Below are positions 10,915 through 47,749 of a stretch of 64,000 bases of DNA, in pieces; position 1 is the stretch's first letter; each line of letters starts with the position of its first letter. The notes beneath the pieces were generated by a model, which saw only the letters and a program-made list of their open reading frames with translations, had not been told where the DNA came from and made no database searches. Source of the DNA: an uncultured Ruminococcus sp. (GTDB taxonomy: Bacteria > Bacillota > Clostridia > Oscillospirales > Acutalibacteraceae); NCBI GenBank assembly GCA_902800005.1, contig CADCCP010000001.1:22626-86625 (forward strand), in the 5' to 3' direction. The position numbers were made by a program, and so were the translations under genes.

Positions 10915-12048
10915 TTATTTTGACGGATAATTTTTTTTCAGTACCTCTGTCAATACCTTTCCCAACAGATAACCCGAATATCTCACCTCTTCCAGTGTAT
11001 TCGACTCCGCTCCCATCTCTATAAGAAGCGAACCTGTATTGATATTCATATTATACATGAAATCTGAAAAATTCAGCGGTCTGACCATGTTCGGATACAT
11101 ATCTGCCGCTGTTTTTTGTATCTGAAGGGCAAACCTCAGATTATATTCCCAATCCCTGAACTCCTCGTCACCGTCATAGTTATATCCCGACAATATCATG
11201 ATCTGTGCGGCTTTCCTGCCGTCAACAGTGAATACAGGCTTTGTTTTCTGTGTATCCGTTCCGATGCCGTCACGGTGTATATCAAGTGTTACCTTGATCG
11301 TCGGGTATTTTTTCAGATATTCACTCACGGTTGCATAACTCCTGTCATATGCACCGTTATAACTCGGATAATCATGCAAAGTAGTATCATGTATCGTCTT
11401 TATGCCTGCCGAATTCAACTGCTTTGCGATCTCCTCACCTACCGCACATATATTCTCCGTTGTATCTGTCGTTCTCGGATAGAAGCTCTCATAAAAATAT
11501 CCTGTGTCATATTTCAGAAAACTCTCCGATGTATGCGTGTGATAAATAAGTACCTGCGGCTTATCGGTGTCCTCCATCTCGAATCCTAACTTGCTTTCAA
11601 GCTCGTTTTTTATATTGATACTCGTTGAGGATGTGTTTTTCATCTGCACATTTTTATAGCTTGTATTTCCCTCTGTTATCGTAAATTCATAAACGGGATA
11701 CTGCTCTTCACCTTCATGACTTTTGTCATATTCCTCTATCTCACTTTCAGTAGGTTCAGATGTTTCAAATTCTGTTTTTTTTACTTCCTTGACAGTCCTG
11801 CTCTCTTCGGGGGAAGATATTTCCGAACTCTCAACTGCTACCACTGCACGACTTTCTTCTTTTGGCGGCTCGGAACTTTCCTCAGTCTCTTTATATGCCG
11901 TATTGCCTGTAGGAAATGCCATTTCTGCCGCCGCTATGTCGAGGGCAGGAATAATATCCGTATACGCTATCTTAACGCCTGCACATATCACTCCCGTCAA
12001 TATGAGCATCCCTGACACTATAAAAATAAAAAAATTTTTTATCTTCAT
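10915..12048 (-). CDS. spoIIP: Stage II sporulation protein P
   Basis: 377 residues. One N-terminal TM segment (about 5-27), a Glu/Ser-rich linker (about 50-115), and a C-terminal SpoIIP amidase/endopeptidase domain. Catalytic landmarks are YHTHTSESF (His170, His172, Glu175), DIHRDG, and a late LLIEMGAESNT. SpoIIP degrades peptidoglycan together with SpoIID during engulfment of the forespore. It follows gpr by about 50 bases, the gpr-spoIIP order of Bacillus and Clostridium, so both are probably co-transcribed. Confidence 0.95.
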   Translation of the reverse strand: MKIKNFFIFIVSGMLILTGVICAGVKIAYTDIIPALDIAAAEMAFPTGNTAYKETEESSEPPKEESRAVVAVESSEISSPEESRTVKEVKKTEFETSEPTESEIEEYDKSHEGEEQYPVYEFTITEGNTSYKNVQMKNTSSTSINIKNELESKLGFEMEDTDKPQVLIYHTHTSESFLKYDTGYFYESFYPRTTDTTENICAVGEEIAKQLNSAGIKTIHDTTLHDYPSYNGAYDRSYATVSEYLKKYPTIKVTLDIHRDGIGTDTQKTKPVFTVDGRKAAQIMILSGYNYDGDEEFRDWEYNLRFALQIQKTAADMYPNMVRPLNFSDFMYNMNINTGSLLIEMGAESNTLEEVRYSGYLLGKVLTEVLKKNYPSK

Positions 12049-12100
12049 ATCTTTTACCCCCCGAAACTCTCTTTCAATCTTTATGCAATATCCCTCTTAT

Positions 12101-12967
12101 TTATGATACAAGCGATAAAAGCGTGTCAAAATCGTACTCGCTCTGCAAGGCACAATTTATTGCCATGCCAACCAATTTTGCCGCGCTCTCTATCAGCAGA
12201 TCTATTTCACGGGGAGTAACTATCATGCTTTCACCTCTCGGTGAAATTTTGCTTTTTTCAATATCATGCCTGTTTAAAATGTCCTGTGCGAGCGTTACCG
12301 CATCAACTACTGTCGGTACTCCCACCGCTATTACAGGTACACCTATATTTTCTTTTGTAATGCCCTTTCGGTGATTTCCCACACCTGAACCCGGATATAT
12401 CCCTGTATCGCTTATCTGCACCGTACAGCCTAATCTTGATAACTCCTTTGCTGCAAGTGCATCTACCACTATCACTGCCGACGGCTTTACACTTTCCGAC
12501 AAACTCTTGACTATCTCACTCACTTCTATGCCCGTCTGTCCCATTACTCCCGCCGATATGACAGATACGCTCCTTAATTTCTCAAGTCCTGTGCTTCTTG
12601 CAAACTCCCCTTTTATATGCCGTGTCGCTAAAACATATCTCATGCTTTTTGCACCCAATGCATCGGGTGTTATATCCGTATTGCCAAGCCCTGCTGCCAA
12701 TACATCTCCCTGCGGCAGAAACTGCCTTATCTCATTCCCGATCATCAGGGCTTCCTTCCTCAAATCACGAAAATTGTCCGTCAACGGCAGACTCTCAACT
12801 GTGATATACCTTCCTACAGGCTTCTTTATCAATCCCGCTGTTTCTTCACTCGTTATCTCTATCCTCGTTATCTTTATATCTCCATCGTTTAACTCCTCTT
12901 TGACGATCCCCGGTAAGTCCGTTTGTGTTTCGGTGTTCTCTATGGCAAGATCTGTTCGTGTCTGCAT
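12101..12967 (-). CDS. gpr: Germination protease GPR
   Basis: 288 residues, an aspartic-type endopeptidase that degrades small acid-soluble spore proteins on germination. Seen: the N-terminal RTDLAIENTE, the central GQTGIEVSEIVKSL and VVDALAAKELSRLG, and GIYPGSGVGNHRKGI. The Bacillus enzyme is about 80 residues longer; the missing part seems to come from loops, as the core motifs are all present. ATG 12967 is preceded by AAAGGA. First gene of the gpr-spoIIP operon. Confidence 0.95.
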   Translation of the reverse strand: MQTRTDLAIENTETQTDLPGIVKEELNDGDIKITRIEITSEETAGLIKKPVGRYITVESLPLTDNFRDLRKEALMIGNEIRQFLPQGDVLAAGLGNTDITPDALGAKSMRYVLATRHIKGEFARSTGLEKLRSVSVISAGVMGQTGIEVSEIVKSLSESVKPSAVIVVDALAAKELSRLGCTVQISDTGIYPGSGVGNHRKGITKENIGVPVIAVGVPTVVDAVTLAQDILNRHDIEKSKISPRGESMIVTPREIDLLIESAAKLVGMAINCALQSEYDFDTLLSLVS

Positions 12968-14427: not shown

Positions 14428-14460
14428 TTGACAGGTAACTTTATGTTACCTGTTATTTTT
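14428..14460 (+). terminator. Terminator 1 upstream of the phage-like locus
   Basis: ACAGGTAAC (14431-14439) pairs with GTTACCTGT (14445-14453), followed by a T run. The same DNA has TTGACA (14428-14433), 17 bases, TGTTAT, a weak promoter look-alike. Confidence 0.8.
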
Positions 14461-14493: not shown

Positions 14494-14525
14494 AAAAATT
14501 CGACCTGTCGGGGTTGAATTTTTTT
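14494..14525 (+). terminator. Terminator 2 upstream of the phage-like locus
   Basis: AAAAATTCGACC (14494-14505) pairs, with one G-U, to GGTTGAATTTTT (from 14512), followed by T residues. It ends only 30 bases before the terminase start codon. Confidence 0.7.
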
Positions 14526-14554: not shown

Positions 14555-15040
14555 TTGAACATCAATCGAAAAAATCTTACTGCGAAAGAAAAACTGTTCT
14601 GCGTGTTATTTGCACAAAACGGCAGTGCTGAGAGATCTGCAAGGTTTGCAGGTTATTCCTCTCCTCAAAAAGACGGTTTTGTTTTGCTGTCTCGTGAGGA
14701 TATAGGAAATTATATCGATTCTATCTGTAATCAAAATTTACAGTATCTTTCAAAACAGGTCATTGCCGGATATGAAAGACTTGCTTTCGGAAGTATTGCC
14801 GATGCCGTGAAACTCATATTTTCAGAAAGCCCTGATGAACTCGGTGAATGTGATCTTTTCAATGTTTCCGAAATAAAGCACCTGAAAAACGGCTCTGTTG
14901 AGATCAAATTCTTTGACCGTATGAAAGCCCTTGAAAAACTTGAAACTCTCGGTACTCCAAATCAATCGGCTGTTTCGGGCTTTGTTAACGCCATAACTGA
15001 GGGCTTTAAAAATTCGGGGGGTGGTAGCAATGTCAAATGA
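14555..15040 (+). CDS. Phage terminase small subunit
   Basis: 161 residues. The N-terminus has the classic terminase-small pattern: LTAKEKLFCVLFAQNGSAER followed by FAGYS, a helix-turn-helix that recognises the packaging site. The rest is helical. The TTG start at 14555 sits behind AAAGGAGG. The stop overlaps the large-subunit start (ATGA). It would dock phage-type DNA to the motor; what DNA it selects here is unknown. Confidence 0.85.
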   Translation: MNINRKNLTAKEKLFCVLFAQNGSAERSARFAGYSSPQKDGFVLLSREDIGNYIDSICNQNLQYLSKQVIAGYERLAFGSIADAVKLIFSESPDELGECDLFNVSEIKHLKNGSVEIKFFDRMKALEKLETLGTPNQSAVSGFVNAITEGFKNSGGGSNVK

Positions 15041-16284
15041 ATTTTGTGCCTTTTTCTTCTAAACAGCTTGAAGTTTTAAGCTGGTGGTTACCGTCAAGGT
15101 CAACTTCCAAATGTGACGGCATTATCTGTGACGGGGCTGTCAGAAGCGGAAAGACACTTTGTATGAGCATCTCTTTTATTGTATGGGCAATGCTCTCTTT
15201 CGATAACAGTTTTTTTGCAATATGCGGAAAGACCATAAGATCTGCAAGAAGAAATGTTGTTGTACCTCTGTTAAACGTGCTGCGTGACATGGGATTTCAG
15301 GTAAATGAAAAAATATCTTTGAATTACTTTGAGGTGCATGACAAAAACAAAGAAAATACTTTTTATCTCTTTGGCGGGCGTGATGAAAGCTCCGCTGCTC
15401 TCATTCAGGGCGTTACACTTTCAGGTATCCTCTTTGATGAAGTTGCACTTATGCCACGTTCGTTTGTCGATCAGGCTATCGCAAGATGTTCTGTCAGCAA
15501 TTCAAAACTTTGGTTCAACTGCAATCCCGAACATCCAAAACATTGGTTTTACCTTGATTGGATAAAAAAAACCGAAGAAAAAAATATGCTGTATATGCAA
15601 TTCACTATGGACGACAATCCCTCCCTTTCAAAAACGATCCGTGAACGCTATAAAAACCTGTATTCAGGCAAATTCTATGAGCGTTTCATACTCGGTCGGT
15701 GGGTGGCGACAGACGGGCTTATTTATGACTTTATGTCCGAAAAAAATATGCTTTACGATGTGCCTCACGGTGAGTTTACCGAATTTGCCGTTTCATGCGA
15801 CTACGGTACTGTGAATCCCGCCTCTTTCGGATTATGGGGACTTCTTGGTGATACTTGGTACAGAATTGATGAATATTACTACAATTCACGCCTTGAAGGT
15901 TCTTCTCGGACTGACGAGGAACATTACGATGCCCTTTGTGAACTCATCGGTGACAGGAATATCTCAACTGTTGTTGTAGACCCGTCTGCCGCAAGCTTTA
16001 TCGAAGTCATTCGCAGACATGGCAGGTTTAATGTCAAACCTGCAAAAAACAATGTTCTTGACGGTATCCGTCAGACAAGTACTGCCCTTAAAAACGGCAA
16101 AATTAAAATCTGTAAAAACTGTCGTGACAGTATCAATGAATTCGGACTTTACCGCTGGAAAAACGGCGGAAAGGATTCTCCCGTGAAAGAAAACGATCAC
16201 GCTATGGACGATATACGTTACTTTGTCACTACCGTTGTCAATGAAGAAATCGATGATTTTTTTGCATTCGCTTCAGACAGATAA
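15037..16284 (+). CDS. Phage terminase large subunit (PBSX type)
   Basis: 415 residues. ATPase domain: Walker A GAVRSGKT at 33-40, Walker B ILFDE at 131-135 with catalytic Glu135. RNase H-like nuclease domain: Asp255 (CDYG), Asp315 (VVVDPSA) and Asp391 (AMDDIRYF), the expected three acidic residues. All residues needed for DNA translocation and headful cutting look intact, which is notable for an element lacking so many other genes. Overlaps the small subunit by four bases and is followed after 22 bases by the portal gene. Confidence 0.93.
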   Translation: MNFVPFSSKQLEVLSWWLPSRSTSKCDGIICDGAVRSGKTLCMSISFIVWAMLSFDNSFFAICGKTIRSARRNVVVPLLNVLRDMGFQVNEKISLNYFEVHDKNKENTFYLFGGRDESSAALIQGVTLSGILFDEVALMPRSFVDQAIARCSVSNSKLWFNCNPEHPKHWFYLDWIKKTEEKNMLYMQFTMDDNPSLSKTIRERYKNLYSGKFYERFILGRWVATDGLIYDFMSEKNMLYDVPHGEFTEFAVSCDYGTVNPASFGLWGLLGDTWYRIDEYYYNSRLEGSSRTDEEHYDALCELIGDRNISTVVVDPSAASFIEVIRRHGRFNVKPAKNNVLDGIRQTSTALKNGKIKICKNCRDSINEFGLYRWKNGGKDSPVKENDHAMDDIRYFVTTVVNEEIDDFFAFASDR

Positions 16285-16306
16285 AATTTTTTGGAGGTGA
16301 TATATA

Positions 16307-17443
16307 TTGGCTCTCTTCAACTTCCTCGGCAGAAAAAAAACCGATACAGATATTCAGACTTTTTCTGCCGATGGTTTCAATTCGGATATTTCTGTCATGT
16401 ACGGTGATCCCGTGTGTGAAAGAAATCTCTATAAAACTCTTAAAAACACCGTTCCGGTCATCGATGCCGCTATTTACAAGATCATCCGTCTGATGGGTGA
16501 TTTCAATATCAAAACGGATTCCGATGAACTTGACCGTGACATAAAAAAATTTCTTCAAAATGTCCGTGTAAATGCCTGTGAAACGGGTATCAACAGTTTC
16601 CTTTCCTGCTATCTTGAACAAATGCTCGTTTACGGTACTGCCGTGGGCGAAATAGTCCTTGACAGAAAACACAAACATATTTCCGCTCTTTACAATGCTT
16701 CCCTTGATGATGTACAGATAGTTTCAGACGGCAATCCCCTTGATATAAAAATCTGCACCGTCAATTCCGACAGCTCTCTCTCTCCCGTGAAATACCCGTC
16801 ACTTGTACTGTGCAGTGCCATTATGCCTGAACCTGCACATATCTACGGTACATCCGTTTTAAAAGGCTTGCCTTTTATCGGTGAAGTTCTCATGAAAATA
16901 TTCAATGCCGTCGGCACAAACTGGGACAGAGTGGGAAATATACGTTTTGCGGTCTCCTACAAGCCAAATGACAATGAACGCTCATTTTCAAAGGAACGTG
17001 CAAAAATAATTGCGGACGAGTGGAGCAAGGCTATGAAAAGCTCTGCTCCAAAAGACTTCATAACTGTCGGTGATGTCAGCATTAAAGTCATAGGTGCTGA
17101 CAATCAGATACCCGACAGCAATATCCCTGTCCGTCAGCTTCTGGAACAGATAGTTGCAAAACTCTCTATACCGCCGTTTTTACTGGGCTTTTCATGGTCG
17201 TCTACAGAGAGAATGTCCGCACAACAAGCCGACATTCTTACAAGTGAACTTGAATATTACAGACGTATCCTTGATTCCACTATCCGTAAAATATGCGATA
17301 TGTATTTCAGGCTCAACGGCATTAAAACCAATTTTGAGATAATCTGGGACAACATCAACTTACAAGATGAAGTGGAACTTGCCCGTGCAAGACTTCTCAA
17401 TGCACAGGCTCAAAAATTGGAAAACACTTTAAGAAAGGACTGA
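16307..17443 (+). CDS. Phage portal protein
   Basis: 378 residues, start TTG 16307 behind GGAGGTGATAT. N-terminal half: DAAIYKIIRLMGDF and GTAVGEIVLDRKHKHI, typical of portal wing regions. C-terminal half: LSIPPFLLGFSWSSTERMSA followed by a helix with ELARARLLNAQ, the crown/stem part. Portals form the dodecameric vertex through which DNA enters. It is somewhat shorter than many portals of 400-500 residues but shows no break. Confidence 0.85.
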   Translation: MALFNFLGRKKTDTDIQTFSADGFNSDISVMYGDPVCERNLYKTLKNTVPVIDAAIYKIIRLMGDFNIKTDSDELDRDIKKFLQNVRVNACETGINSFLSCYLEQMLVYGTAVGEIVLDRKHKHISALYNASLDDVQIVSDGNPLDIKICTVNSDSSLSPVKYPSLVLCSAIMPEPAHIYGTSVLKGLPFIGEVLMKIFNAVGTNWDRVGNIRFAVSYKPNDNERSFSKERAKIIADEWSKAMKSSAPKDFITVGDVSIKVIGADNQIPDSNIPVRQLLEQIVAKLSIPPFLLGFSWSSTERMSAQQADILTSELEYYRRILDSTIRKICDMYFRLNGIKTNFEIIWDNINLQDEVELARARLLNAQAQKLENTLRKD

Positions 17444-17447
17444 TATT

Positions 17448-18380
17448 TTGAATAAAAACGATATTCGTGAAGGGGAACTTGCACTCATCAACAGGCATAC
17501 AAGAACCCCTCTTACCGAAAATGATGTTTACGCATTTTCAGTGATACTCTGCGACAACGACATTGACCGTGATCTTGAACGCTTTTCCGATAATGCCCTT
17601 GATGAACTTGCAAAACTCTTTGACGGAGTGACGGGCATTACAGACCATAACCCTAAATCCGACAATCAGACTGCAAGAATATTTTCATGTAAGTCTGAAT
17701 TTGTACCCGATAAGTTCACCTCTGACGGCAAGCCTTATAAACGTCTTTTTGCCCGTGCATATGTGCCGAGTTCTCAGGCTGACTTCATACGCTCCATTGA
17801 AAGCGGCATTAAAAAAGAAGTCAGTATCGGCTGTTCCGTCAAAAGACGTATATGCTCAATATGCGGCAGGGATATTTCGCTTTGTCCACATACAAAAGGC
17901 AAATACTATGAAGATCAACTCTGCTTTGTCACTCTCGACAAGCCTACAGATGCATATGAATGGTCATTCGTCGCTGTGCCTGCACAGAAAAATGCAGGCG
18001 TTATCAAAAATTTTGACTTGAAAGGAAATGATGAAATGAATGTCGAAAAACGTCTTTTCAGCGGTGAAGAACAGACCTTCTCCGCTGAAGAAGTGAGGGA
18101 ACTTGCTGAAACTTTCCGTTCCCTCAAACAGAAAGCCGCTGACGGTGAAGTTTACCGTAACAGCCTTGTCAGAGAGATAAAAACTCTTTCAGCTTTTGCA
18201 CTCCCCGATATGAGTGCCGATACTCTCGACTGCATGACAAAAAATCTCTCTGTCGTTCAGCTTAATGAACTTATCAAATCTCTTGAAACAAAAACCGCTG
18301 ACGTTCTTCCTACAGAACCTCAACTCGCCAAAAACGGCAATTCCCGCACTTCCAACAACACTATCTATAAAAACATTTAA
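17448..18380 (+). CDS. Capsid maturation protease, XkdF-like, possibly fused to scaffold
   Basis: 310 residues, TTG start four bases after the portal stop. Residues 1-190 resemble prohead proteases of Firmicute phages: ITDHNPKSDNQTARI, a Cys-rich insert with two CxxC-like pairs (CSICGRDISLCPH), and PTDAYEWSFVAVPAQ. Residues 205-290 are helical and charged and could act as an internal scaffold, as in delta-domain fusions. The catalytic residues cannot be named with certainty; His45 of TDHNP and the conserved Ser of VSIGCS are candidates. Confidence 0.75.
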   Translation: MNKNDIREGELALINRHTRTPLTENDVYAFSVILCDNDIDRDLERFSDNALDELAKLFDGVTGITDHNPKSDNQTARIFSCKSEFVPDKFTSDGKPYKRLFARAYVPSSQADFIRSIESGIKKEVSIGCSVKRRICSICGRDISLCPHTKGKYYEDQLCFVTLDKPTDAYEWSFVAVPAQKNAGVIKNFDLKGNDEMNVEKRLFSGEEQTFSAEEVRELAETFRSLKQKAADGEVYRNSLVREIKTLSAFALPDMSADTLDCMTKNLSVVQLNELIKSLETKTADVLPTEPQLAKNGNSRTSNNTIYKNI

Positions 18381-18395
18381 GGAGGATATTTTAAC

Positions 18396-18728
18396 ATGAC
18401 TGTATCTTTTGACGGCTATAATGCCAATACTGTAACTTTTGAAGCAGCAAGCGGTGTAACTGTCGGTTTGCCCGTAATGATCTCCGCAAACGGCAAAGTT
18501 TCAAATGCGACTTCCGCTTTTTGCGGTGTCTGCAAGTCCCTTAAAAACGGCTATGCCGCTGTACAGCTTGACGGCTATGTAAGACTTCCCTATACGGGTT
18601 CCATCGCTGTCGGATATAAACAGCTTGTCGTTGATGACGGCGAAATAAAAGTTGACACCACCAACGGCAGAGAACATCTTGTCATAGATGTAGATTCAAC
18701 AACAAATACCGCAGGTATTATTCTTTAA
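18396..18728 (+). CDS. Small beta-rich head protein, probably capsid decoration
   Basis: 110 residues, all beta by look (alternating hydrophobic residues, many Gly and Val), encoded between protease and capsid with AAGGAGGA upstream. Position and size match head-decoration or DUF2190-like proteins that stabilise expanded capsids. No specific motif proves this; the assignment rests on gene order and composition. Confidence 0.6.
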   Translation: MTVSFDGYNANTVTFEAASGVTVGLPVMISANGKVSNATSAFCGVCKSLKNGYAAVQLDGYVRLPYTGSIAVGYKQLVVDDGEIKVDTTNGREHLVIDVDSTTNTAGIIL

Positions 18729-18746
18729 AAGGAGGATTTTTTAACT

Positions 18747-19742
18747 ATGGCTTTCTATGATTCTATCAAACTTGAAAAAGGTATGTATGCAAACGGTAAA
18801 TCACTTACCAAAACCCTGGAGGAACTCGATCCCTCCGAAAACTACAGGAATACCGATATGGAAGGCTTGGACGCTTTCCAGAGACAGCTTAAAAGATATG
18901 ATATAAAAGTCGGCGGTGCTTACTCCGATGACGTGCAGAAATTCTTTCAGTCTGCCAATTCCGCTGTACTCTTCCCCGAATACATTGCCCGTGCCGTCAA
19001 GCAGGGCATGAAAAATGCCGATGTCCTTTCAGACATCGTGGCTGCAAAAACCAAAATTAACGGCATGGATTACCGTTCGGTTACATCTTCGCCTGTCGGT
19101 GAAAACAACAGTATCGTTGCAGAAAGTGCCGAACTTCCTCAGACGGAAATAAAAACAAATCCCAATCTTGTTACACTTACAAAGCGTGGCAGAATGCTGA
19201 CGGCTTCCTATGAGGCTCTCAAATATCAGCGTTTGGACATTTTCACTGTAACACTTCGTCAGATCGGTGCATATATAGCAAGAGAACAGCTTTCCGATGC
19301 AGTGAATGTCCTCGTCAACGGTGACGGCGGCAACAATGCCGCTGAAGTCATTACAGAAAGCGGTACTTTCTCTTATGACTCTTTGCTCAAACTCTGGGCA
19401 GGTCTTGCACCCTACGAACTCAATACTATAATCGCTCCGCCTGCCCTCATTCAGCAGATATTGGCATTCTCCGAAATGAGAGATTCAAATGCCGGTCTTG
19501 ATTTTCACGGTACGGGCAAAATGCTTACTCCTCTCGGTGCAAAGCTGATCTGTGCTCCCACTTTGGCAAGCAATAAGATCATCGGTCTTGATAAGAACTG
19601 TGCATTGGAAATGATACAGTCCGGCGGCATCGTAATAGACTCCGACAAGCTCATTGACAGACAGCTCGGTCGTACCGCTATAAGCTGTACGACAGGTTTC
19701 TCAAAGATATTCACTGATGCTGCAAAAGTCCTTTCACTTTAA
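18747..19742 (+). CDS. Major capsid protein, HK97-fold
   Basis: 331 residues. An N-terminal arm (about 1-60) precedes ...VLFPEYIARAVKQGMKNADV and VLSDIVAAKTKINGMDYRSV, then VTLTKRGRMLTASYEAL and a C-terminal region with LICAPTLASNKIIGLDKNCA, as in HK97-fold capsids of Firmicute phages. It sits after the protease and decoration genes and has a strong AAGGAGG site. Complete, with no frameshift. Confidence 0.87.
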   Translation: MAFYDSIKLEKGMYANGKSLTKTLEELDPSENYRNTDMEGLDAFQRQLKRYDIKVGGAYSDDVQKFFQSANSAVLFPEYIARAVKQGMKNADVLSDIVAAKTKINGMDYRSVTSSPVGENNSIVAESAELPQTEIKTNPNLVTLTKRGRMLTASYEALKYQRLDIFTVTLRQIGAYIAREQLSDAVNVLVNGDGGNNAAEVITESGTFSYDSLLKLWAGLAPYELNTIIAPPALIQQILAFSEMRDSNAGLDFHGTGKMLTPLGAKLICAPTLASNKIIGLDKNCALEMIQSGGIVIDSDKLIDRQLGRTAISCTTGFSKIFTDAAKVLSL

Positions 19743-19756
19743 TGGAGGTGTGACGG

Positions 19757-20113
19757 TTGAATATCGAAAATATCATTTCTGTATTCAGCCGTCTTTCAGG
19801 CTCCGATGAGGAAACTTCTGTAAACTTCCGCTTCATGTGCGAAAATGCAAAAGACTATATCCTTTCACACCTGAAGCCGAAATCCGATATGGCAAGCTGC
19901 TGCGGCAAACTTGAATTTGCGGCAGCAGCCCTTGCCTATTACAGATATATTCTTTGGTCGGTCGCTGAAAGCGGCGGTGATATTACCGTAGGAGATGTTT
20001 CCGTTAAGTCATCTTCCGCTGTCCTTGCAAATGCTCAAAAAATTTGTGAACAGGCTTTTGCAGATATTTCTGATGTCTTTGACAACGGCTGTTTTGTATT
20101 CGGGGTGATGTGA
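19757..20113 (+). CDS. Head-tail connector-like protein
   Basis: 118 residues, mainly helical, TTG start behind GGAGGTG. Placement directly after the capsid and its size match gp6-type connector or adaptor proteins (XkdH region of PBSX) that bind below the portal. CCGKLEFAAAALAYYRYILW forms a central helix. Function inferred mostly from position. Confidence 0.6.
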   Translation: MNIENIISVFSRLSGSDEETSVNFRFMCENAKDYILSHLKPKSDMASCCGKLEFAAAALAYYRYILWSVAESGGDITVGDVSVKSSSAVLANAQKICEQAFADISDVFDNGCFVFGVM

Positions 20114-20114
20114 C

Positions 20115-20435
20115 GTGGACAGACTTCAAAAAGCTATACGAAAACTCGGTATACCTGTTTCCGTCACCGTCTCCGATGAAACAAGAACAGGTCTTGCCGT
20201 GATATATCCCGAAAAGTCGGGCAGGCTCTCTCACACTTCCGAAGGACATTCCGACAGCGGTAAATTCATGCTTTTTTCCGAAACATCATTTCTTGAAAAC
20301 GCAAATTACGGTGACATCATTTCTGACGGTACAAACCAATATATGCTCCTTTGGGCAAATACATATTCATGCAAATGCGGTTCTTATGCCAAAGCCTGCA
20401 TGAAAATCTTTACGAATGGGAGTGTTGTTTCTTAA
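20115..20435 (+). CDS. Putative head-completion / minor structural protein
   Basis: 106 residues, GTG start one base after the preceding stop. It has a short helix, then beta strands (SGKFMLFSETSF, GDIISDGTNQYMLLWANTYS), consistent with a head-closure or stopper fold. Its stop overlaps the next start as TAATG. No diagnostic motif; assigned by position. Confidence 0.5.
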   Translation: MDRLQKAIRKLGIPVSVTVSDETRTGLAVIYPEKSGRLSHTSEGHSDSGKFMLFSETSFLENANYGDIISDGTNQYMLLWANTYSCKCGSYAKACMKIFTNGSVVS

Positions 20436-20848
20436 TGAACAGCTTTATTGATGAAATTTATACGCTTGCCGAAAATGACAGCCTTTTTGAAAACTGCAAA
20501 CTCATGAAAGCAAATGACTTTGAAAAATTTGCCTTTCCCGTAAATAAGCCTGTTGTTTCATTCGGCTCCGAAAAATACGACAGAATGAATTTTCTTCTGG
20601 GTTATGACATAGTGGAATCGGCTGATGAAAAAGCTGTTATCAATGTCGTGACCGATGAGAAACAGGGCGGTGCATTCTGCGAGGAACTTGCAAAAAATAT
20701 CTGTATCAGGCTCATCGAACTTGACGAGGGAAAAAATATCATTTCCGTTGCCGTTGACAGATGTGTCTTTGACAAGAATATTTTTGCTTACAAGATAAAA
20801 ATAACCTTCGGCTTGCGTGAAACGATCATAAAAATGGGGGAGGAGTGA
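20435..20848 (+). CDS. Putative tail-terminator-like protein
   Basis: 137 residues. ATG 20435 shares its A with the previous stop (TAATG). A longer frame starting at 20351 is unlikely because it would overlap the preceding gene by 85 bases. The alternating pattern RMNFLLGYDIVESADEKAVI resembles alpha/beta tail-terminator or minor capsid folds (gpU/XkdJ place). In an ordinary contractile phage the sheath gene would follow here; it is absent. Confidence 0.5.
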   Translation: MNSFIDEIYTLAENDSLFENCKLMKANDFEKFAFPVNKPVVSFGSEKYDRMNFLLGYDIVESADEKAVINVVTDEKQGGAFCEELAKNICIRLIELDEGKNIISVAVDRCVFDKNIFAYKIKITFGLRETIIKMGEE

Positions 20849-20852
20849 TATT

Positions 20853-21242
20853 TTGGAGGAATTAAAGACCGTTTGCGGACGTGATGTCCGTATCTTCATC
20901 AATGGCAGACAGCTTTTGCAGGCTGAAAATGCGGAAGTTCGTGAAGTTATGCACATCCACAAAATACGCACCTGCTTTTCAAACAGCGATTTTGCTCACA
21001 TAAAAGGCAAGTCCGAATATAAAGCGATATTTTCAAATCTCATATTCATTCAGCCCTTTGAAAACTGCAATTTCCATGACCTTGAAAATTTCACTGTCGG
21101 CATTGAATTTGACGATACAAAGATAACTCTTTCAAACTGCCTTTGGAATGACTTTGCTTTGACGGCGGATAAAGAAAAATTCCGTGAACATATCACTCTT
21201 ACCGCTCTGGATATGGAGGTGGAAAATATCAATGGAGAATGA
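20853..21242 (+). CDS. Tail-tube-like protein (tentative)
   Basis: 129 residues, TTG start behind GGGGGAGGAG. The early VCGRDVRIFINGRQLLQAEN followed by alternating beta strands and a late ITLTALDMEVENI resembles the short tube proteins of PBSX-type tails (XkdM, about 147 residues), whose order in the locus it would match. Sequence similarity is weak by eye. If this is the tube subunit, the particle would have a tube without a sheath or a tape measure to set its length. Confidence 0.5.
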   Translation: MEELKTVCGRDVRIFINGRQLLQAENAEVREVMHIHKIRTCFSNSDFAHIKGKSEYKAIFSNLIFIQPFENCNFHDLENFTVGIEFDDTKITLSNCLWNDFALTADKEKFREHITLTALDMEVENINGE

Positions 21243-21354
21243 AAATTTCAGTGACGAATTGTCCGTTTTGACGGATATTTCCGATATGATTGAATATGAT
21301 ATGCTCCGATATGACAAGACTATCTCAGTAGAGGAGGAATCCTATGACACCTGA
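21232..21354 (+). CDS. 40-residue ORF in the tail chaperone/tape-measure position
   Basis: A very acidic 40-residue frame. Its ATG at 21232 lies inside the end of the tube-like gene and has ATGGAGGTGG about ten bases upstream. Its stop overlaps the next gene by eleven bases. In PBSX/P2-type phages this slot holds the tail-assembly chaperone and then the tape measure, the longest gene. The little ORF might be a remnant or a dedicated short spacer protein. Translation is likely from the ribosome site but unproven. Confidence 0.5.
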   Translation: MENENFSDELSVLTDISDMIEYDMLRYDKTISVEEESYDT

Positions 21355-21865
21355 CGGTAAAATGAGCTATAAGAATTTTATTTTCCCCGTGAATCCCTAT
21401 GTAATACACATTTCACACGCTAAAAAATCTGTTGAGCATAAAATTCCACTTGCACAGAATATTGTTTGCGACTTGGGAGAAAATGCCCGTATAATCACGG
21501 GTGAAGGTGAATTTTTCGGTACGAACTGCATGAATGACTTTGACAGACTTGAAAGTATCTTTCACTCGAAAGGCGGCGGAATGTTATACATTCCGTCACA
21601 AAAGCCTGTTTACGCTGTATTTGACAAGCTGGAGCTTATTGCACAGGATACCGAAAATGTCGTGAAATATACATTCCGTTTCATTGAGAGTTTTGACAGG
21701 AATAAAAACAATGTTTCGGAAACGTGCATTTCAGACGGCATCAAATGCCTGTGGGATCACTCGTATGAACACGGCATTGACATAGAAAGGCTTGTAAAAG
21801 CAAATCCCGATATACTTCGTCCCGATATTCCGATACCTCACGGAAAGGCTGTGAAATTATGCTGA
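21344..21865 (+). CDS. Baseplate hub/tail connector protein with C-terminal LysM (XkdP-like)
   Basis: 173 residues. Residues about 10-120 resemble the DNA-circularisation/N-terminal tail domain found in phage hub connectors: VNPYVIHISHAKKSVEHKIP, ENARIITGEGEFFG and GGGMLYIPSQKPVYAVFDKL. The last 45 residues (CLWDHSYEHGIDIERLVKAN, then DIPIPHGKAV) match a LysM fold that can bind the peptidoglycan or link hub proteins. PBSX XkdP has the same layout. GAGGAGGA precedes ATG 21344. Confidence 0.8.
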   Translation: MTPDGKMSYKNFIFPVNPYVIHISHAKKSVEHKIPLAQNIVCDLGENARIITGEGEFFGTNCMNDFDRLESIFHSKGGGMLYIPSQKPVYAVFDKLELIAQDTENVVKYTFRFIESFDRNKNNVSETCISDGIKCLWDHSYEHGIDIERLVKANPDILRPDIPIPHGKAVKLC

Positions 21866-22776
21866 GATACATTTTAAAAGATATTTACGGAAATGAAACG
21901 GCTTTGAAAAAGCCTCTTAAAGTCAGTTTTGTATCGTCTGAAGATGCACCTGCCGACAGGCTTACAGCGGCTTTTGCAGTAAAGGAAGTTTTTCAGCCGC
22001 TTATGTCCGTTGAAGTCCTCGACAGAACGGAACGTATATTTTTCGGTTACGTTGATACTCAAACAGATGAACAGACCGTCAACGGAATTATCCTGACCGT
22101 TTCGGCAAGAAGTCTTGCTTGTGTCCTGCTGGATAACGAGGCTTTACCGCAAACTTATTGTATGATTTCCATGCGTGACCTGATGGAAAGACATTTTGCA
22201 CCTCTGGGTCTCACGCATTTCAAAGGCACAAATAAAACTTTTGATGATGAATTTATCGTGTCAAAGGGCATGAGTGAATGGGCGGTATTGTCGGAGTTCT
22301 GTAAAAAATTTACAGGAACTTCACCGAAGATCGATCGTAACGGCGTTATTGACATTTCGGGTGAAAGTGACGGCAAAGCCGTTTATATATCGTCAGACCG
22401 CTGTATTTCCAAAAAACATACGCTTAAAAGACATCTTCTCATATCGGATATAATGGTGAGGGCGGAAACGTCAAACGGCTATGTCATGCCGTTTGAAGAT
22501 GATTTTGCAAACTCTCTCGGCATTAAAAAAAGACGTTATCTGAATGCTGCCGACAGTAAAAATCTTTCTCCGCTGAGTGCGGTCAGGATTCTTGAAAATG
22601 CCGATAATCACTATGAACAAGTTTTTCTGAATGTATCGGGTTGTGTGATATGTACAGTCGGTACTGAGTTGATCTTGGATAACGAGGATAAGAAATATAT
22701 CATTAAAGAAATACAGTATTCTCTGAGTGACAGGGGAGAACATACAGGAATTTATGCAGAGGTGAAGTATATTTGA
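21859..22776 (+). CDS. Baseplate hub protein, gpD/XkdQ-like
   Basis: 305 residues. Strand-rich hub with VSFVSSEDAPADRLTAAF and FFGYVDTQTDEQ early, and a central WAVLSEFCKKFTGTSPKI helix, as in P2 gpD or PBSX XkdQ, which form the trimeric hub above the spike. Overlaps the preceding gene (ATGCTGA) and the next (TTGA). Length close to the XkdQ size of about 325. Confidence 0.8.
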   Translation: MLRYILKDIYGNETALKKPLKVSFVSSEDAPADRLTAAFAVKEVFQPLMSVEVLDRTERIFFGYVDTQTDEQTVNGIILTVSARSLACVLLDNEALPQTYCMISMRDLMERHFAPLGLTHFKGTNKTFDDEFIVSKGMSEWAVLSEFCKKFTGTSPKIDRNGVIDISGESDGKAVYISSDRCISKKHTLKRHLLISDIMVRAETSNGYVMPFEDDFANSLGIKKRRYLNAADSKNLSPLSAVRILENADNHYEQVFLNVSGCVICTVGTELILDNEDKKYIIKEIQYSLSDRGEHTGIYAEVKYI

Positions 22777-23120
22777 AAATATCAAGAAACATATCGAATA
22801 AAAATAAAAATCTGACCTGCATTACAGGCAAGGTCGTTTCAAGTGCCGACAGGAGAATTGCTGCCGCATCTTCGGACGGTACGGCACAATTTTCTGTCGT
22901 TGCACCCAAAGGTATAGACTATGTACCGCAAATGAATGATGATTCCGTTGTGATAGCATCCGAAAATGAAAGACTTTGCATTGGAGTCAGACGTTCCGAC
23001 AATCCCTATGAGATACAAACAGGAGAACTTGCTTTGTATTCACAGGGCGGTGCTTATATCATATTGAAAAATGACGGCACTGTTGTAATCAACGGTCATG
23101 TCTTTGGAACGGGGGAATGA
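22773..23120 (+). CDS. Short baseplate spike / gpV-like OB-fold protein (XkdR position)
   Basis: 115 residues, TTG start overlapping the previous stop. ITGKVVSSADRRIAAASSDG, then VAPKGIDYVPQMNDDSVVIA, reads as an OB-fold, and the C-terminus (GGAYIILKNDGTVVINGHVF) is the repeat that begins a beta-helical spike. It is a minimal version of gp45/gpV-type membrane-piercing spikes; no metal-binding HxH tip is seen. Confidence 0.75.
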   Translation: MKISRNISNKNKNLTCITGKVVSSADRRIAAASSDGTAQFSVVAPKGIDYVPQMNDDSVVIASENERLCIGVRRSDNPYEIQTGELALYSQGGAYIILKNDGTVVINGHVFGTGE

Positions 23121-23122
23121 AC

Positions 23123-23437
23123 ATGGATACAGCTTTGAATATAACGGGAGATATATCCCGTGATACCGTTTCGGGCAGCGATGAGATACAGCAGAGATTA
23201 TATATACTTCTTTCCGCAAGGTATGGAAAATTCATATATGACCGTGAACTTGGCAGTGATATATTTTCAGTTGACATATCACAGCCCGATTGTACGGATA
23301 TAATAGAATCCCATGCAAGAAAGGCACTCTCGGATATGCCGAATGCAGAGATAGTCGGAGTAGTTGCGGATAACGGTAATATCTGCATAGGCGTTGAAGC
23401 GGACGGAGAAATTTATGAGATAACTTTAAGACAATAG
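23123..23437 (+). CDS. Baseplate wedge protein, gp25/XkdS-like (DUF2634)
   Basis: 104 residues. DEIQQRLYILLSARYGKFIY and the late beta part fit the gp25/gpW family, a lysozyme-like or wedge component that in contractile tails nucleates sheath assembly. GGGGG fits ATG 23123; an ATG at 23117 overlapping the former stop is an alternative adding two residues. Keeping a sheath-nucleating protein without a sheath gene nearby is odd. Confidence 0.8.
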   Translation: MDTALNITGDISRDTVSGSDEIQQRLYILLSARYGKFIYDRELGSDIFSVDISQPDCTDIIESHARKALSDMPNAEIVGVVADNGNICIGVEADGEIYEITLRQ

Positions 23438-23447
23438 GAGGATATTT

Positions 23448-24503
23448 ATGGCATACACATATAATGAAATTCTTGCAAGAATGAATGACAGATTTGAAGA
23501 TGCTGCGGGTTTCGCACCTGACAGGGCAAGCGATATCGAAATAAGACTGAAACTGCTTGCAGGGGAGATATACTCTCTTTGCACTGAGATAGACGGCATT
23601 AAAAAACAGATGTTCCCCAATACCGCAACAGGTGAATATCTTGATCGCCATGCAAGTCAGAGAGGTCTTTCACGCATCAAGGGCAATAAAGCCACAGGAT
23701 TTGTCGTGTTCAGACTTGATACCCCTCTTGACCATGATATTACGATACCTCGTGGAACGGTCTGTTCAAATGCGGACGGTTCATTGAGATATGTAACTGT
23801 CAATGACGACACTATCCCCCGTGAAAGCTCATATAAACTCATTGTATGCGAGGCAGTTGACAGCGGTGAAAGATATAATGTCGGTCGTGGGATCGTCGGT
23901 GTTATCATGACATATTTTTCGGTAGGATTGAGTATCACGAATTCGACCTCTTTTATAGGCGGCAGCGATGATGAAAGTGATGAAGAACTGCGTAAGAGAA
24001 TTGCAGACAGCTATCTGAATACACCAAATGGTGCAAATGAGGCTTATTACATAAATTTGGCAAAGTCCGTTGACGGCATAAATTCGGCAACGGTAACAAG
24101 TTCTGCCGCAGGCAGTATAACTGTTTGTGTGGGAGGTGAAGGCGATGTTCCGTCAAATGATGAGTATCAGAATGCCAATGACGTTCTTAGTGCAGGCAGA
24201 CCTTTGGGTATAAATCTGACTGTGACAAGACCTGAACTTGTGACGGTGAACGTCACGGCTGAGATAGATGTCAAAGACGGCTTCACGGCAAACGAAGCTA
24301 TTTCAAATGCTACTGTAAGCATGACAAACTTTTTCAATAAACTTTCGGTCGGTGAAGGTGTAAAATTGGCGGCACTCGGCAAGGCTCTGTATGAAGCTGA
24401 CGGTGTAGATAATTACACACTTGTCGGCATGACGGACACGACTGTATCAAAAAGTCAGCTTGCAAAACTCGGTACTGTAAGCATTACCGCACCGAATGCT
24501 TAA
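23448..24503 (+). CDS. Baseplate J-like protein (XkdT)
   Basis: 351 residues, the same length as PBSX XkdT. Seen: the N-terminal helix EILARMNDRFEDAAGFAPDR, TATGEYLDRHASQRGLSRIK, the beta middle with IPRGTVCSNADGSLRYVT, and the family signature FIGGSDDESDEELRKRIADS followed by GANEAYY. Baseplate J/gp6 proteins form the wedge ring. AGGAGGATATTT precedes the ATG. Confidence 0.92.
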   Translation: MAYTYNEILARMNDRFEDAAGFAPDRASDIEIRLKLLAGEIYSLCTEIDGIKKQMFPNTATGEYLDRHASQRGLSRIKGNKATGFVVFRLDTPLDHDITIPRGTVCSNADGSLRYVTVNDDTIPRESSYKLIVCEAVDSGERYNVGRGIVGVIMTYFSVGLSITNSTSFIGGSDDESDEELRKRIADSYLNTPNGANEAYYINLAKSVDGINSATVTSSAAGSITVCVGGEGDVPSNDEYQNANDVLSAGRPLGINLTVTRPELVTVNVTAEIDVKDGFTANEAISNATVSMTNFFNKLSVGEGVKLAALGKALYEADGVDNYTLVGMTDTTVSKSQLAKLGTVSITAPNA

Positions 24504-24515
24504 AGGAGGTTTGTC

Positions 24516-24986
24516 ATGTCTGAATTTCAGAGAATGAGCGATATACTTTCAGCAACGGGATTATATAATGCTGAAAGAAACAGCCTTTTATTTGCAGAAC
24601 TGAAAGCCTATGCAGAGGGCTTGGACATGGTTTTTGACGAACTTGAGGAGATGTTGAGAGAGTGCTTTGTTGAAACGGCGGAGAGTTACGGATTGACCAT
24701 GCGTGAAACGTGGTTAAAGAGATACAATCCCGACAGGACGCTTGAAACAAGACGTAATGCAATAAAGTCCGCCCTGTCGGTAAGTCAGAGCGACTACACA
24801 TACAGCGGTATGCGAAAGATATGTGACAGCTTCAATTTACACGGCGATTTCAATGCTTATACATCACCTATGAAAGTTACGTTTACCTGTACGGACACTC
24901 TCACCAACACTCAAAAAACCGTGCTTGCAGATCAGATGAAGAAATTCATGCCTTGTTGGTTAGAATTTGAATTTATCTGCAATTAA
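24516..24986 (+). CDS. Baseplate protein gpI/YmfQ-like (XkdU)
   Basis: 156 residues. ETRRNAIKSALSVSQSDYTY and the preceding helices match the DUF2313/YmfQ family that joins the baseplate to tail fibres. It is the last gene; instead of a fibre gene, two terminators follow directly. AAAGGAGGT precedes ATG 24516. Confidence 0.82.
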   Translation: MSEFQRMSDILSATGLYNAERNSLLFAELKAYAEGLDMVFDELEEMLRECFVETAESYGLTMRETWLKRYNPDRTLETRRNAIKSALSVSQSDYTYSGMRKICDSFNLHGDFNAYTSPMKVTFTCTDTLTNTQKTVLADQMKKFMPCWLEFEFICN

Positions 24987-25038: not shown

Positions 25039-25071
25039 ACGAACTGTTTTTTTTACAGTTCGTCTTTTTTT
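25039..25071 (+). terminator. Terminator 2 after the phage-like locus
   Basis: ACGAACTGT (25039-25047) pairs with ACAGTTCGT (25055-25063), loop of T, then CTTTTTTT. A short direct repeat of ATTATGAATTATG-like units follows at 25073-25105. Confidence 0.88.
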
Positions 25072-28893: not shown

Positions 28894-29592
28894 TCACAAA
28901 GATTCCAGTGCAATTTCCATCATGTTATTAAAAGTTTTCTCTCTTTCATCGGAAGTACAGCTTTCACCCGTCAATGGACAGTCTGAAATTGTGCAGATAC
29001 AAAGGGCATTTTTGCCAAGTCTTGCGGCATTGAGATAAAGTGCCGCACACTCCATTTCAGTTGCAAGGATACCCAATTTTCTCCAATCGGCAAGGTTATC
29101 TGTATCGTTATAGAAAATATCCGTTGTGTAGACAGAGCCGACATATACTTTTTTATTAAGTCTTTGAGCAGTTTCAAAGGCTTTTTTAAGGAGTTCAAAA
29201 CTTGCAGTGGGAGCGATATTTCCCGAAAGTCCATACTGTGCGGCAAAATTGGAGTTCGTGCAGGCGGACATTGCAATAACTATATCACGCAAGCCCAATT
29301 TATCACTTATTGCCCCTGCTGTGCCGATTCTGATTATATTTTCAACGTCAAAGAACTTGAAAAGTTCATATGAGTAAATTGCCATAGAAGGCATACCCAT
29401 GCCGCTTGCCATGACGGAAACGGGCTTATTTTTATAAGTTCCCGTATAGCCAAGCATACCTCTTACATCATTCACCAAAACTGCATTTTCAAGATATTTT
29501 TCAGCTATGTACTTAGCCCTTAACGGATCGCCGGGCATGAGAACGGTTTTGGCAAAATCGCCTTTTTCGGCTTTTATATGCGGAGTAGCCAT
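28894..29592 (-). CDS. deoD: Purine-nucleoside phosphorylase
   Basis: 232 residues, full length for the hexameric trimeric-type DeoD enzymes. Seen: the N-terminal TPHIKAEKGDFAKTVLMPGD phosphate loop, MASGMGMPSMAIYSYEL, and the active-site region ATEMECAALY with ISDCPLTGE near the C-terminus (Asp of ISD). It cleaves purine ribo- and deoxyribonucleosides with phosphate in the cytoplasm. Oddly, no Shine-Dalgarno sequence is visible before the ATG: the upstream DNA is an AT-rich TAGCAAT repeat merging into a 7-bp tandem repeat. Confidence 0.95.
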   Translation of the reverse strand: MATPHIKAEKGDFAKTVLMPGDPLRAKYIAEKYLENAVLVNDVRGMLGYTGTYKNKPVSVMASGMGMPSMAIYSYELFKFFDVENIIRIGTAGAISDKLGLRDIVIAMSACTNSNFAAQYGLSGNIAPTASFELLKKAFETAQRLNKKVYVGSVYTTDIFYNDTDNLADWRKLGILATEMECAALYLNAARLGKNALCICTISDCPLTGESCTSDEREKTFNNMMEIALESL

Positions 29593-29616
29593 AATTCAAT
29601 TAGCAATTAGCAATTT

Positions 29617-29727
29617 ACAATGTACAATGTACAATGTGCAATGTACAATGTGCAATGTGCAATGTGCAATGTACAATGTGCAATGTGCAATGTACAATGT
29701 GCAATGTGCAATGTGCAATGTACAATT
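29617..29727. repeat. 7-bp tandem repeat, about 15 copies of RCAATGT
   Basis: Fifteen full units from 29617 to 29721 plus a partial one. Each unit is ACAATGT or GCAATGT; in order the first bases run A A A G A G G G A G G A G G G. Degenerate TAGCAAT units extend left to about 29597, reaching the deoD start. No ORF on either strand is supported here. Slippage-prone; copy number is probably variable between strains. Confidence 0.95.
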
Positions 29728-29789
29728 ACTGATTGCTATCTCCTTTCTTGTCATTATGTTGATTTCGGTAATTCAATTATGAATTGAAT

Positions 29790-47206: not shown

Positions 47207-47749
47207 TCAAAAGACGAAGTCAAAAAATGGGATATAAGCAGAAACCGGTACGGCAACACAGCCGCAGATTACACCGAACAATGCACCTGCAATTACATCT
47301 GTCGGGTAATGCACGAGAAGATACATTCTGGAGAAAGCCATGAGAGCAGCAAAGATGAATACAGGGATAAACAACTGCTGACACATGAAGAACATCACGA
47401 CAGAAACTGCAAATGATGAGGAGGAGTGACCTGAAGGAAAGGAGTAGTGAGGGGGATTTTCGATCAGAAGATATTCTTCAAAGGACTTGTTGCAGGGACG
47501 GACACGGCCGACGATATGTTTTATGGTGACCTCACCGCCGAGCCATGTGAAGCATAGGGCAACAAGTATGGTAAAGCCTGTTATCCGCCACCTGTTCATG
47601 ACAAGGAAGGGAGCTGCAAATACAAACCATATATAACCGTGATTGCCGACAGTGGTTATGAGTATCATGATCTTATTGAGCAGAGAAGTTCTTTTATGAG
47701 TAAGGTTGAGAAGTATTTTTTCATCCCAAGCCTGAATTTTTTCAAGCAT
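47207..47749 (-). CDS. PAP2-family membrane phosphatase
   Basis: 180 residues, five to six TM helices. The three catalytic motifs are complete: KHIVGRVRP (K-x6-RP), PSGHSSSSF (PSGH) and SRMYLLVHYPTD (SR-x5-HxxxD). Likely recycles undecaprenyl pyrophosphate or acts on phosphatidic acid; the family alone does not tell. AGGGTG is well placed before ATG 47749. Confidence 0.94.
   Translation of the reverse strand: MLEKIQAWDEKILLNLTHKRTSLLNKIMILITTVGNHGYIWFVFAAPFLVMNRWRITGFTILVALCFTWLGGEVTIKHIVGRVRPCNKSFEEYLLIENPPHYSFPSGHSSSSFAVSVVMFFMCQQLFIPVFIFAALMAFSRMYLLVHYPTDVIAGALFGVICGCVAVPVSAYIPFFDFVF

Follow-up and report, generated by a model that had tools for sequence, protein, structure and literature searches.

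PBSX of Bacillus subtilis packs host DNA, and its single gene cluster, ordered from terminase to xkdU, includes a sheath, fibres, lysis genes and a full tape measure. The gene transfer agents (GTAs) RcGTA and CcGTA of the Alphaproteobacteria have siphovirus-type tails. CcGTA is controlled through a palindrome-linked anti-terminator, with about 18 promoters of accessory genes (PMC11150451). Six features have been proposed for a GTA: particle proteins derived from Caudoviruses, packaging of mostly random host DNA, a genome fixed in the host and often spread over several loci, genes of its own that are too long for the head, vertical inheritance with co-diversification, and delivery of DNA to cells (Kogay et al. 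2022, PMC9662315). FpGTA of Faecalibacterium forms particles of ~40 nm with no identifiable tail, which pack 8.4-8.9 kb of random host DNA; FpGTA I has ten open reading frames (ORFs) with proteins like those of short-tailed phages, its TerS is reported to be without an obvious DNA-binding domain, and a second operon carries baseplate, fibre and lysis (holin, endolysin) genes (Borodovich et al. 2026, PMC12946183). The authors found such packaging in several Ruminococcaceae and Oscillospiraceae and searched four metagenome-assembled genomes (MAGs) for the genes, with a strong candidate in one; their text mentions neither a sheath nor a tape measure. Here we describe a phage-derived operon at positions 14555-24986 of a 64,000-nucleotide stretch of DNA (the window) from an uncultured Ruminococcus sp. 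of the Acutalibacteraceae (GCA_902800005.1, contig CADCCP010000001.1, positions 22,626 to 86,625). With a probability of roughly 0.7, it is a vertically inherited, GTA-like element, a former short contractile-tailed phage that the host has kept as a particle operon.

The operon has 17 intact ORFs, all on the + strand like every feature given below, whose neighbours overlap or lie within about 25 bp of each other in the order packaging, head, connectors, tube, hub, spike and baseplate. Terminator-like hairpins stand on either side, at 14429..14455, 3' of the upstream sugar-binding-protein gene, and at 25039..25063. An earlier, sequence-only reading of the window had recognised these intact, co-directional frames but counted 16 of them, missing the ORF at 21232-21354. 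None of the 17 ORFs is an integrase, replication, lysis, fibre, sheath or chaperone gene; the longest flanking direct repeat is 12 bp, inside the range of shuffles, the window has no tRNA genes, and there is no G+C step at the operon. The locus shows neither the broken frames and relaxed selection of a decayed prophage, nor the integration module or att repeats of a temperate phage, nor the sheath of a contractile injection system or tailocin. The same gene order is found in the 20 other genus loci fetched, with few losses: g5 was not found in 2 of the 21 genus loci, nor g15, the sheath initiator, in 2 of 21. That reading had also allowed for related strains with a full prophage in this place; none of the 20 loci has one, and the sheath-bearing relatives that do exist belong to other genera and families and are themselves compact and short-tailed.

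The terminase-to-xkdU order is that of PBSX, which differs in its sheath, full ruler, fibres and lysis genes, none of which the locus has save a stub of the ruler. RcGTA and CcGTA resemble it in vertical inheritance and, as proposed for the present family, in dispersal over several loci and co-ordinated control, but differ in their siphovirus-type tails and unrelated hosts. With the contractile tails and tailocins (phage 812, phage Mu, the C. difficile R-type particle) it shares a tube-like g10, a gp45-like spike, gp25, J and I, whereas it is without sheath, chaperones and full tape measure and has a DNA-packing head. FpGTA, as described in PMC12946183, has a similarly compact TerS-TerL-portal-scaffold-capsid operon of about 10 kb, a TerS with no evident DNA-binding domain, a trait that some members of the present family share, and its fibre and lysis genes in a second operon, where here holin-endolysin and putative fibre genes are tied to the palindrome in congeners only. 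It differs in that its baseplate lies in operon II, whereas tube, hub, spike, gp25, J and I lie here in the head operon, and in that a tape-measure stub and a shared palindrome are visible in the present family. As for the features of a GTA, the particle proteins are Caudovirus-derived by sequence similarity; inheritance is vertical with co-diversification, with eight conflicting pairs of supported splits; and the genome is fixed at the locus, its dispersal over several loci being supported in congeners and not in the window's genome. Judged from its genes, the locus fits a GTA on phage descent and vertical inheritance, and partly on dispersal.

The domesticated, GTA-like particle with a very short tail or none that the sequence-only reading proposed is favoured by the comparative data: distribution, co-divergence with RecA, dN/dS, and the lack of an integration, replication or lysis module. 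A capsid-gene match was found in 63 of 64 genomes of the genus, the window's own included, in 31 of the 56 other family genera, each represented by a single genome, and in 5 of 78 further genomes of the order. These matches come one per genome and are mostly full length and without stops, those of three genus genomes (G027, G039, G059) being split or partial. Across the order, 71 of 394 genomes drawn carry the locus, 69 of them with one match. The sole genus genome without a capsid match (G010) is perhaps a mixed bin, since it gave two weaker RecA matches where most genomes gave one strong match. Relatives are encoded in at least 592 stretches of named genome contigs; the best 80 of these were used, and no Faecalibacterium-titled record is among them. 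Caproiciproducens faecalis, Caproiciproducens galactitolivorans, Caproicibacter fermentans and Clostridium sporosphaeroides are named cultured strains that carry the locus, and IMG/VR lists many such loci as small viral contigs.

Distances for TerL, portal, g4 and capsid together follow those for RecA (Mantel r 0.83 in 47 genomes, 0.73 within the 21 of the genus and 0.70 among the 26 others; no permutation reached the observed r). FastTree trees of RecA and of the particle genes have 15 of 44 splits in common, where chance would give 0.2, and both recover the genus as a single clade. In three species pairs the genes measured all have a dN/dS of 0.03-0.33, with dS about 0.5 or more in most of them, and the head, portal and terminase genes are under similar constraint to the hub, spike and wedge genes. 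Flanking genes are the same only within sub-clades. Upstream of the locus, at 10915-12967, the window has SpoIIP-like and Gpr-like sporulation genes (named by eye), a neighbourhood that recurs in just two (L036, L037) of the 20 genus loci fetched besides this one. MAG contigs end often, and here and below the absence of a gene was judged only where the flank was long enough.

The packaging module consists of the small terminase TerS (14555..15040; Pfam Terminase_2 1.3e-13, and alignment), with its N-terminal helix-turn-helix (HTH) region kept, and the large terminase TerL (15037..16284; Pfam Terminase_6N 7.1e-18, phrog_2 9.9e-47). Conservation of TerS within the genus is 0.57 in the HTH region, 0.77 in residues 61-130 and 0.43 in the last 30; in 8 of 68 loci the frame has fewer than 125 codons, too short to hold the HTH part. 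The portal (16307..17443; phrog_30703 3e-126) is followed by g4 (17448..18380; phrog_16951 2.8e-89, a family of unknown function), an XkdF-like prohead protease/scaffold candidate. The AlphaFold model of g4 (pLDDT 87) matched no PDB fold at E<=0.001, so this naming rests on weak Pfam evidence, a match of 1 of 37 aligned relatives to Peptidase_S78_2/XkdF at 0.0012, and on position. Then come g5, a small, decoration-like virion protein (18396..18728; phrog_4588 9.8e-16), and the major capsid protein (18747..19742; Pfam Phage_capsid_4 1.3e-13, phrog_3922 1.7e-92), whose profile found no match among PDB sequences up to E 0.1. The next three genes are named purely from their place: g7 as a head-tail connector (19757..20113; synteny and a weak Pfam match only), g8 as neck or head closure (20115..20435; synteny, with no Pfam or PHROG family match) and g9 as a tail terminator candidate (20435..20848). 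In two relatives (L349, L354) the order of the head module is permuted, with capsid before g4 in one form and g5-capsid before portal-g4 in the other, and the genes are kept.

The tail part begins with g10 (20853..21242), a tail tube protein of contractile type. Its profile finds the tail tube protein of PDB 8q01 (E 9.9e-8), and the best fold matches of its model (pLDDT 85), which are modest (E 1e-4 to 1e-3, TM 0.5-0.6), are chains from the neck of phage 812, from the baseplate and trunk of phage Mu and the R-type tube protein of C. difficile; its homologue stands after the sheath gene in sheath-bearing relatives. The hub is represented by g12, a LysM-type tail protein in the place of XkdP (21344..21865; Pfam DNA_circ_N 1.2e-5, phrog_184 hub 0.0013), and g13 in the place of XkdQ (21859..22776; phrog_177 8.5e-10). 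The profile of the gp45-like spike or puncturing protein g14 (22773..23120) matches the gp45 baseplate puncturing device of phage Mu (PDB 9ki1_V, E 7.2e-4). The baseplate is completed by g15, a gp25-like wedge or sheath initiator (23117..23437; phrog_120 8.9e-8, Pfam Sheath_initiator 0.01, below the Pfam cut-off), the wedge protein J (23448..24503; Pfam Baseplate_J 1.1e-41) and a gpI/gp48-like wedge protein (24516..24986; Pfam Phage_Mu_Gp48 3.4e-8, slightly below cut-off, phrog_521 5.5e-16), the last in a short form without the extra residues of fibre-bearing relatives.

The absence of a sheath gene, stated by the sequence-only reading, is borne out: there is none among the ORFs, and a profile made from two relatives, which does match other relatives, found none in any of the 21 genus loci. 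The claim that the tape measure has no candidate does not hold. Between tube and hub, in the tape-measure slot, lies the 40-codon gene g11 (21232..21354), with a counterpart in 21 of 21 genus loci examined (39-51 aa in every one read) and a C-terminal motif, S..l..D..RY/F followed by acidic residues, which is also present in the ORF directly 5' of the hub gene in most sheathless loci. In sheath-bearing relatives the slot holds an ORF of about 120-290 aa, 3' of a pair of ~140 aa and ~85 aa (fused in L230) that we read by its position as a putative tail chaperone; the lengths of ~150 aa in L097, L098 and L173 may be over-long through upstream start codons and were not relied on. A looser C-terminal pattern, D..R(Y/F)D, ends the slot ORF in 16 of 18 sheath-bearing loci (the exceptions are L081 and L212), and the strict pattern occurs in only 6 of the 18. 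When a profile from 111 sheathless slot ORFs was run against the 2247 ORFs of sheath-bearing loci, the first eight ranks were all slot ORFs, at E 8e-4 to 0.04 apart from L080, which was in the profile seed. In the 157 loci with a recognised g12, the tube-hub distance has a median of 1156 bp (18-1446) in the 18 sheath loci and 132 bp (51-221) in those 91 of 139 sheathless loci where a tube was recognised. On the strength of the shared motif, g11 is a vestigial tape measure, a C-terminal remnant rather than a complete absence. Loci with a sheath include 6 of the 7 read in family f14, three of f26, a few of f1 and many contigs of IMG/VR; in two of them, L080 and L081, the sheath (PHROG E about 1e-20) goes with little or no ruler, apparently an intermediate state.

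Further steps of reduction are found among the relatives. In 231 loci, 125 have a baseplate without sheath, 41 a sheath and 19 no baseplate, and 46 had too little flank to be judged. A capsid tree that leaves out these 46 and gives each 90% identity group a single row has 132 rows: 24 have a sheath, 92 have baseplate J without a sheath and 16 have no recognised J, some of the latter keeping hub or tube. Tail states cluster on this tree, a quick one with some long branches, with 11 changes against 37.5 when shuffled, and none of 200 shuffles was as low. The capsid-hub gene distance is below 1000 bp in 10 sheathless loci with neither terminator nor tube recognised, and 1100-1200 bp in 11 more, 10 of which have a recognised tube and no recognised terminator. 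Several lineages are without a recognisable baseplate, some without any recognisable fibre, and some relatives retain only head and hub; L055, L057 and L079, from other genera, carry a fusion of a g9-like with a fibre-like domain, and the genes after it are not of phage origin. The I protein varies with the fibre: it has at least 183 aa in 47 of 47 loci with a recognised fibre and fewer than 175 aa in 38 of 48 without one, and at least four of the ten exceptions (L054, L056, L080, L081) have a fibre below cut-off. By gene content the relatives form a series that starts with a short contractile tail (sheath, small ruler and a chaperone-like pair), passes through the window type and the loci without recognised terminator or tube, and ends with loci without baseplate. 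In one relative (L058, 15287-16568), the small ORFs after the fibre-like gene include two very similar 103-aa proteins that look barstar-like by eye and may be an immunity cargo with which the particle operon ends.

The palindrome shortly 5' of terS (14494..14523, core 14499-14518), a conserved, operator- or attenuator-like hairpin with a T-run, has arms TTCGACC, TTGACC or TTCAACC and a 4-base loop, usually followed by Ts. A score of at least 17/20 is reached by 18 of the 21 genus loci and by 12 of 840 control windows, some of the latter possibly containing the real site, and the best site lies 44-64 nt 5' of the called terS start in 18 of the 21 loci; in G031, where the particle contig is short, it was not found. 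The 64 genus genomes hold 139 forward matches, against 8 of the reversed pattern and 24 of a control palindrome of the same shape, and 37 of them have two or more sites. Among the matches listed, 17 of 20 genomes with at least two sites have a single arm variant, and three (G056, G018, G039) are mixed. A second palindrome, TTGCATA-N4-TATGCAA, stands 5' of terS in 15 other loci. In genera g121 and g122, which have it, 4 of 11 other sites are followed by PHROG-supported phage genes, namely replication initiators (L480, L482, L485) and a family of unknown function (L486); the case of L478 is weaker, L483 has no match and two more sites in G490 have nothing.

We fetched 36 sites of the first palindrome outside the particle operon, and four genomes were sampled exhaustively (17 sites). 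Behind 9 of these 17 lie a DnaD-like gene (L398), a VapE-like gene (L399), a Lin1244-like gene (L402), an SSB-like gene (L407), holins (L408, L411), a lysis cassette with a GH25 enzyme by similarity (L403) and phage families of unknown function (L409, L412); a helicase gene also lies behind a palindrome copy. One copy precedes a holin and a CHAP endolysin (L413); behind another (L422) stand three proteins without an assigned role, one of them a putative fibre by a sub-threshold LamG match, together with an 84-aa protein, a holin of the r1t type and a GH25 lysozyme. Holin-endolysin genes are found with the palindrome in congeners (L403, L413, L417, L422), and the fibre genes there are putative. 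The sequence-only reading was right that the locus itself has no fibre or lysis genes, but several congeners have holin-endolysin and putative fibre genes elsewhere behind the same palindrome. In three species (L413, L416, L419) the palindrome stands with a holin, and in L413 and L419 an endolysin, apparently at one chromosomal place, since the order and lengths of the genes point to acyl carrier protein and/or ilvN-ilvB as neighbours, which suggests vertical inheritance of the lysis pair. The fibre/lysis-type operons of L403 and L422 adjoin a SpoVM-like small ORF, and L422 and L428 a PAP2-like phosphatase (by eye), neighbours that again suggest one chromosomal place; the window has a similar phosphatase at 47207-47749 without such an operon.

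Two candidate assignments for the lysis genes were rejected. A 267-aa endolysin next to a holin, first taken for a GH25 enzyme, has a homologue that is CHAP/CW_7 by Pfam, and the PF05105 holin, found in 34 of 64 genus genomes with several copies in some, is not by itself a universal lysis partner. PF05105 holins also occur on three further phage fragments of the window's genome (contigs C99, C111 and C121; L432-L434). Two of these have endolysin ORFs that look CHAP-like by eye, L434 has an integrase-like ORF, and together they show how many lysis genes of prophages compete with any assignment to the particle operon.

We infer the link from palindrome to regulation; SOS (LexA) control was dropped, the palindrome being different from the LexA box. 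The palindromes might be a mere common type of terminator, and a regulon linking the operons would then not be real. That many copies are intergenic and precede T-runs would be expected of terminators, and it fits that 8 of the 17 unselected sites adjoin host genes or genes not identified, that arm variants are mixed in three genomes and that the window's genome has no copy elsewhere. We nevertheless find this explanation doubtful, given the fixed place before terS, the excess over the control palindrome, the single arm variant in most genomes with several listed sites and the replication-type genes behind another clade's palindrome.

If the locus is GTA-like, its terminase would pack host DNA into a small capsid, joined to the baseplate by one, few or no tube rings, so that the particle would look tailless. 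Production would be co-ordinated by a regulator that reads the clade-specific palindrome, release would depend on holin-endolysin genes elsewhere in the genome, and binding on fibre genes, which in congeners apparently form separate operons under the same palindrome. DNA may then enter without contraction, the spike and hub opening the recipient envelope. A wider proposal, to which we give somewhat less than an even chance, is that of a domesticated lineage, spread through several families of one bacterial order, in which the contractile tail was dismantled stepwise (ruler and chaperone, sheath, then terminator and tube) and the baseplate docked on the head, with particle, fibre/lysis and DnaD-like genes forming one dispersed regulon whose palindrome was rewritten in each clade with its regulator. 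If this is true, DNA would be delivered through a myovirus-type baseplate with a tail of zero length, a design of which we found no account in the literature searched.

Several observations weigh against a GTA-like element. Particle, packaged DNA and transfer have not been observed in this genus. The likeness to FpGTA, the nearest precedent, is drawn from published descriptions, and the TerS of the window retains its HTH region. The locus is missing from 25 of the 56 other genera of the family, and eight pairs of supported splits conflict between the RecA and particle-gene trees. A g11 profile from the genus alone has no significant match to the long rulers except L153 (0.0011) and the seed member L080, and fibre family A2 is found in none of 64 genus genomes against 15 of 20 others. 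A phage-type gene stands behind only 9 of the 17 unselected palindrome sites, in two cases by phage families of unknown function. In the window's genome, as in its near relatives G021 and G045, the particle operon is the one place where the palindrome is found. Even when two mismatches are allowed, the window's genome shows no excess over the control pattern; its isolated holin-endolysin pair (contig 66) has no palindrome, and no fibre or lysis operon there is tied to one.

One rival is a PBSX-like particle that packs host DNA without delivering it and harms or lyses neighbours with its baseplate and spike, a possibility that the authors of PMC12946183 name for FpGTA. The PBSX-like gene order and the purifying selection on the hub, spike and wedge genes agree with killing. 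Without a sheath, however, there is no contraction stroke, the genus loci have no fibre gene, head, portal and terminase are similarly constrained, and some relatives retain only head and hub, all of which makes a killing particle unlikely. It is still less probable that the particle serves its producer in some other way, by DNA release or as a capsid with no role in transfer. The lineages without recognisable baseplate, or even fibre, mean that any common role must rest on the head module, but most loci read keep baseplate, hub and spike, and in congeners holin and putative fibre genes are still found after that palindrome. An active temperate phage or satellite with its genome split over several loci would explain the DnaD-like loaders and the VapE-like, SSB-like and helicase genes behind palindrome copies; with one copy per genome, co-divergence, no integrase or flanking repeat, and parts that are dispersed, we consider it very improbable. 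A neutral prophage remnant, which the missing tail parts and the patchy presence outside the genus might suggest, can practically be dismissed on the intact frames and a dN/dS well below 1 in every gene measured.

Taken as a GTA-like element, the locus takes the very recent finding of FpGTA beyond its single genus, towards a trait that many Clostridia of gut and rumen have in common, and loci of the present family are candidates for the genes of the other packaging Ruminococcaceae and Oscillospiraceae. They provide a visible evolutionary series for the shortening of a contractile tail to nothing, and the clade-specific palindromes offer a way to search for the regulator and for those fibre, lysis and replication genes that are missing. 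Should the particles transfer DNA, they would be a route of gene flow among abundant gut bacteria, a hypothesis that is testable because named cultured strains carry the locus. Besides PMC12946183 on related hosts, we found no literature on this locus in this family, in a search that covered neither bioRxiv nor most subscription journals.

A second terL-like match in the window's genome was set aside: it lies in a Mu-like transposable prophage (named by eye; contig C25) with transposase- and MuB-like ORFs, and its terL has 66% DNA identity over 324 bp to that of the locus. Elsewhere in the window, at 29507-29782, short tandem repeats encode a repetitive CNVQCAMYN reading frame between ordinary genes.

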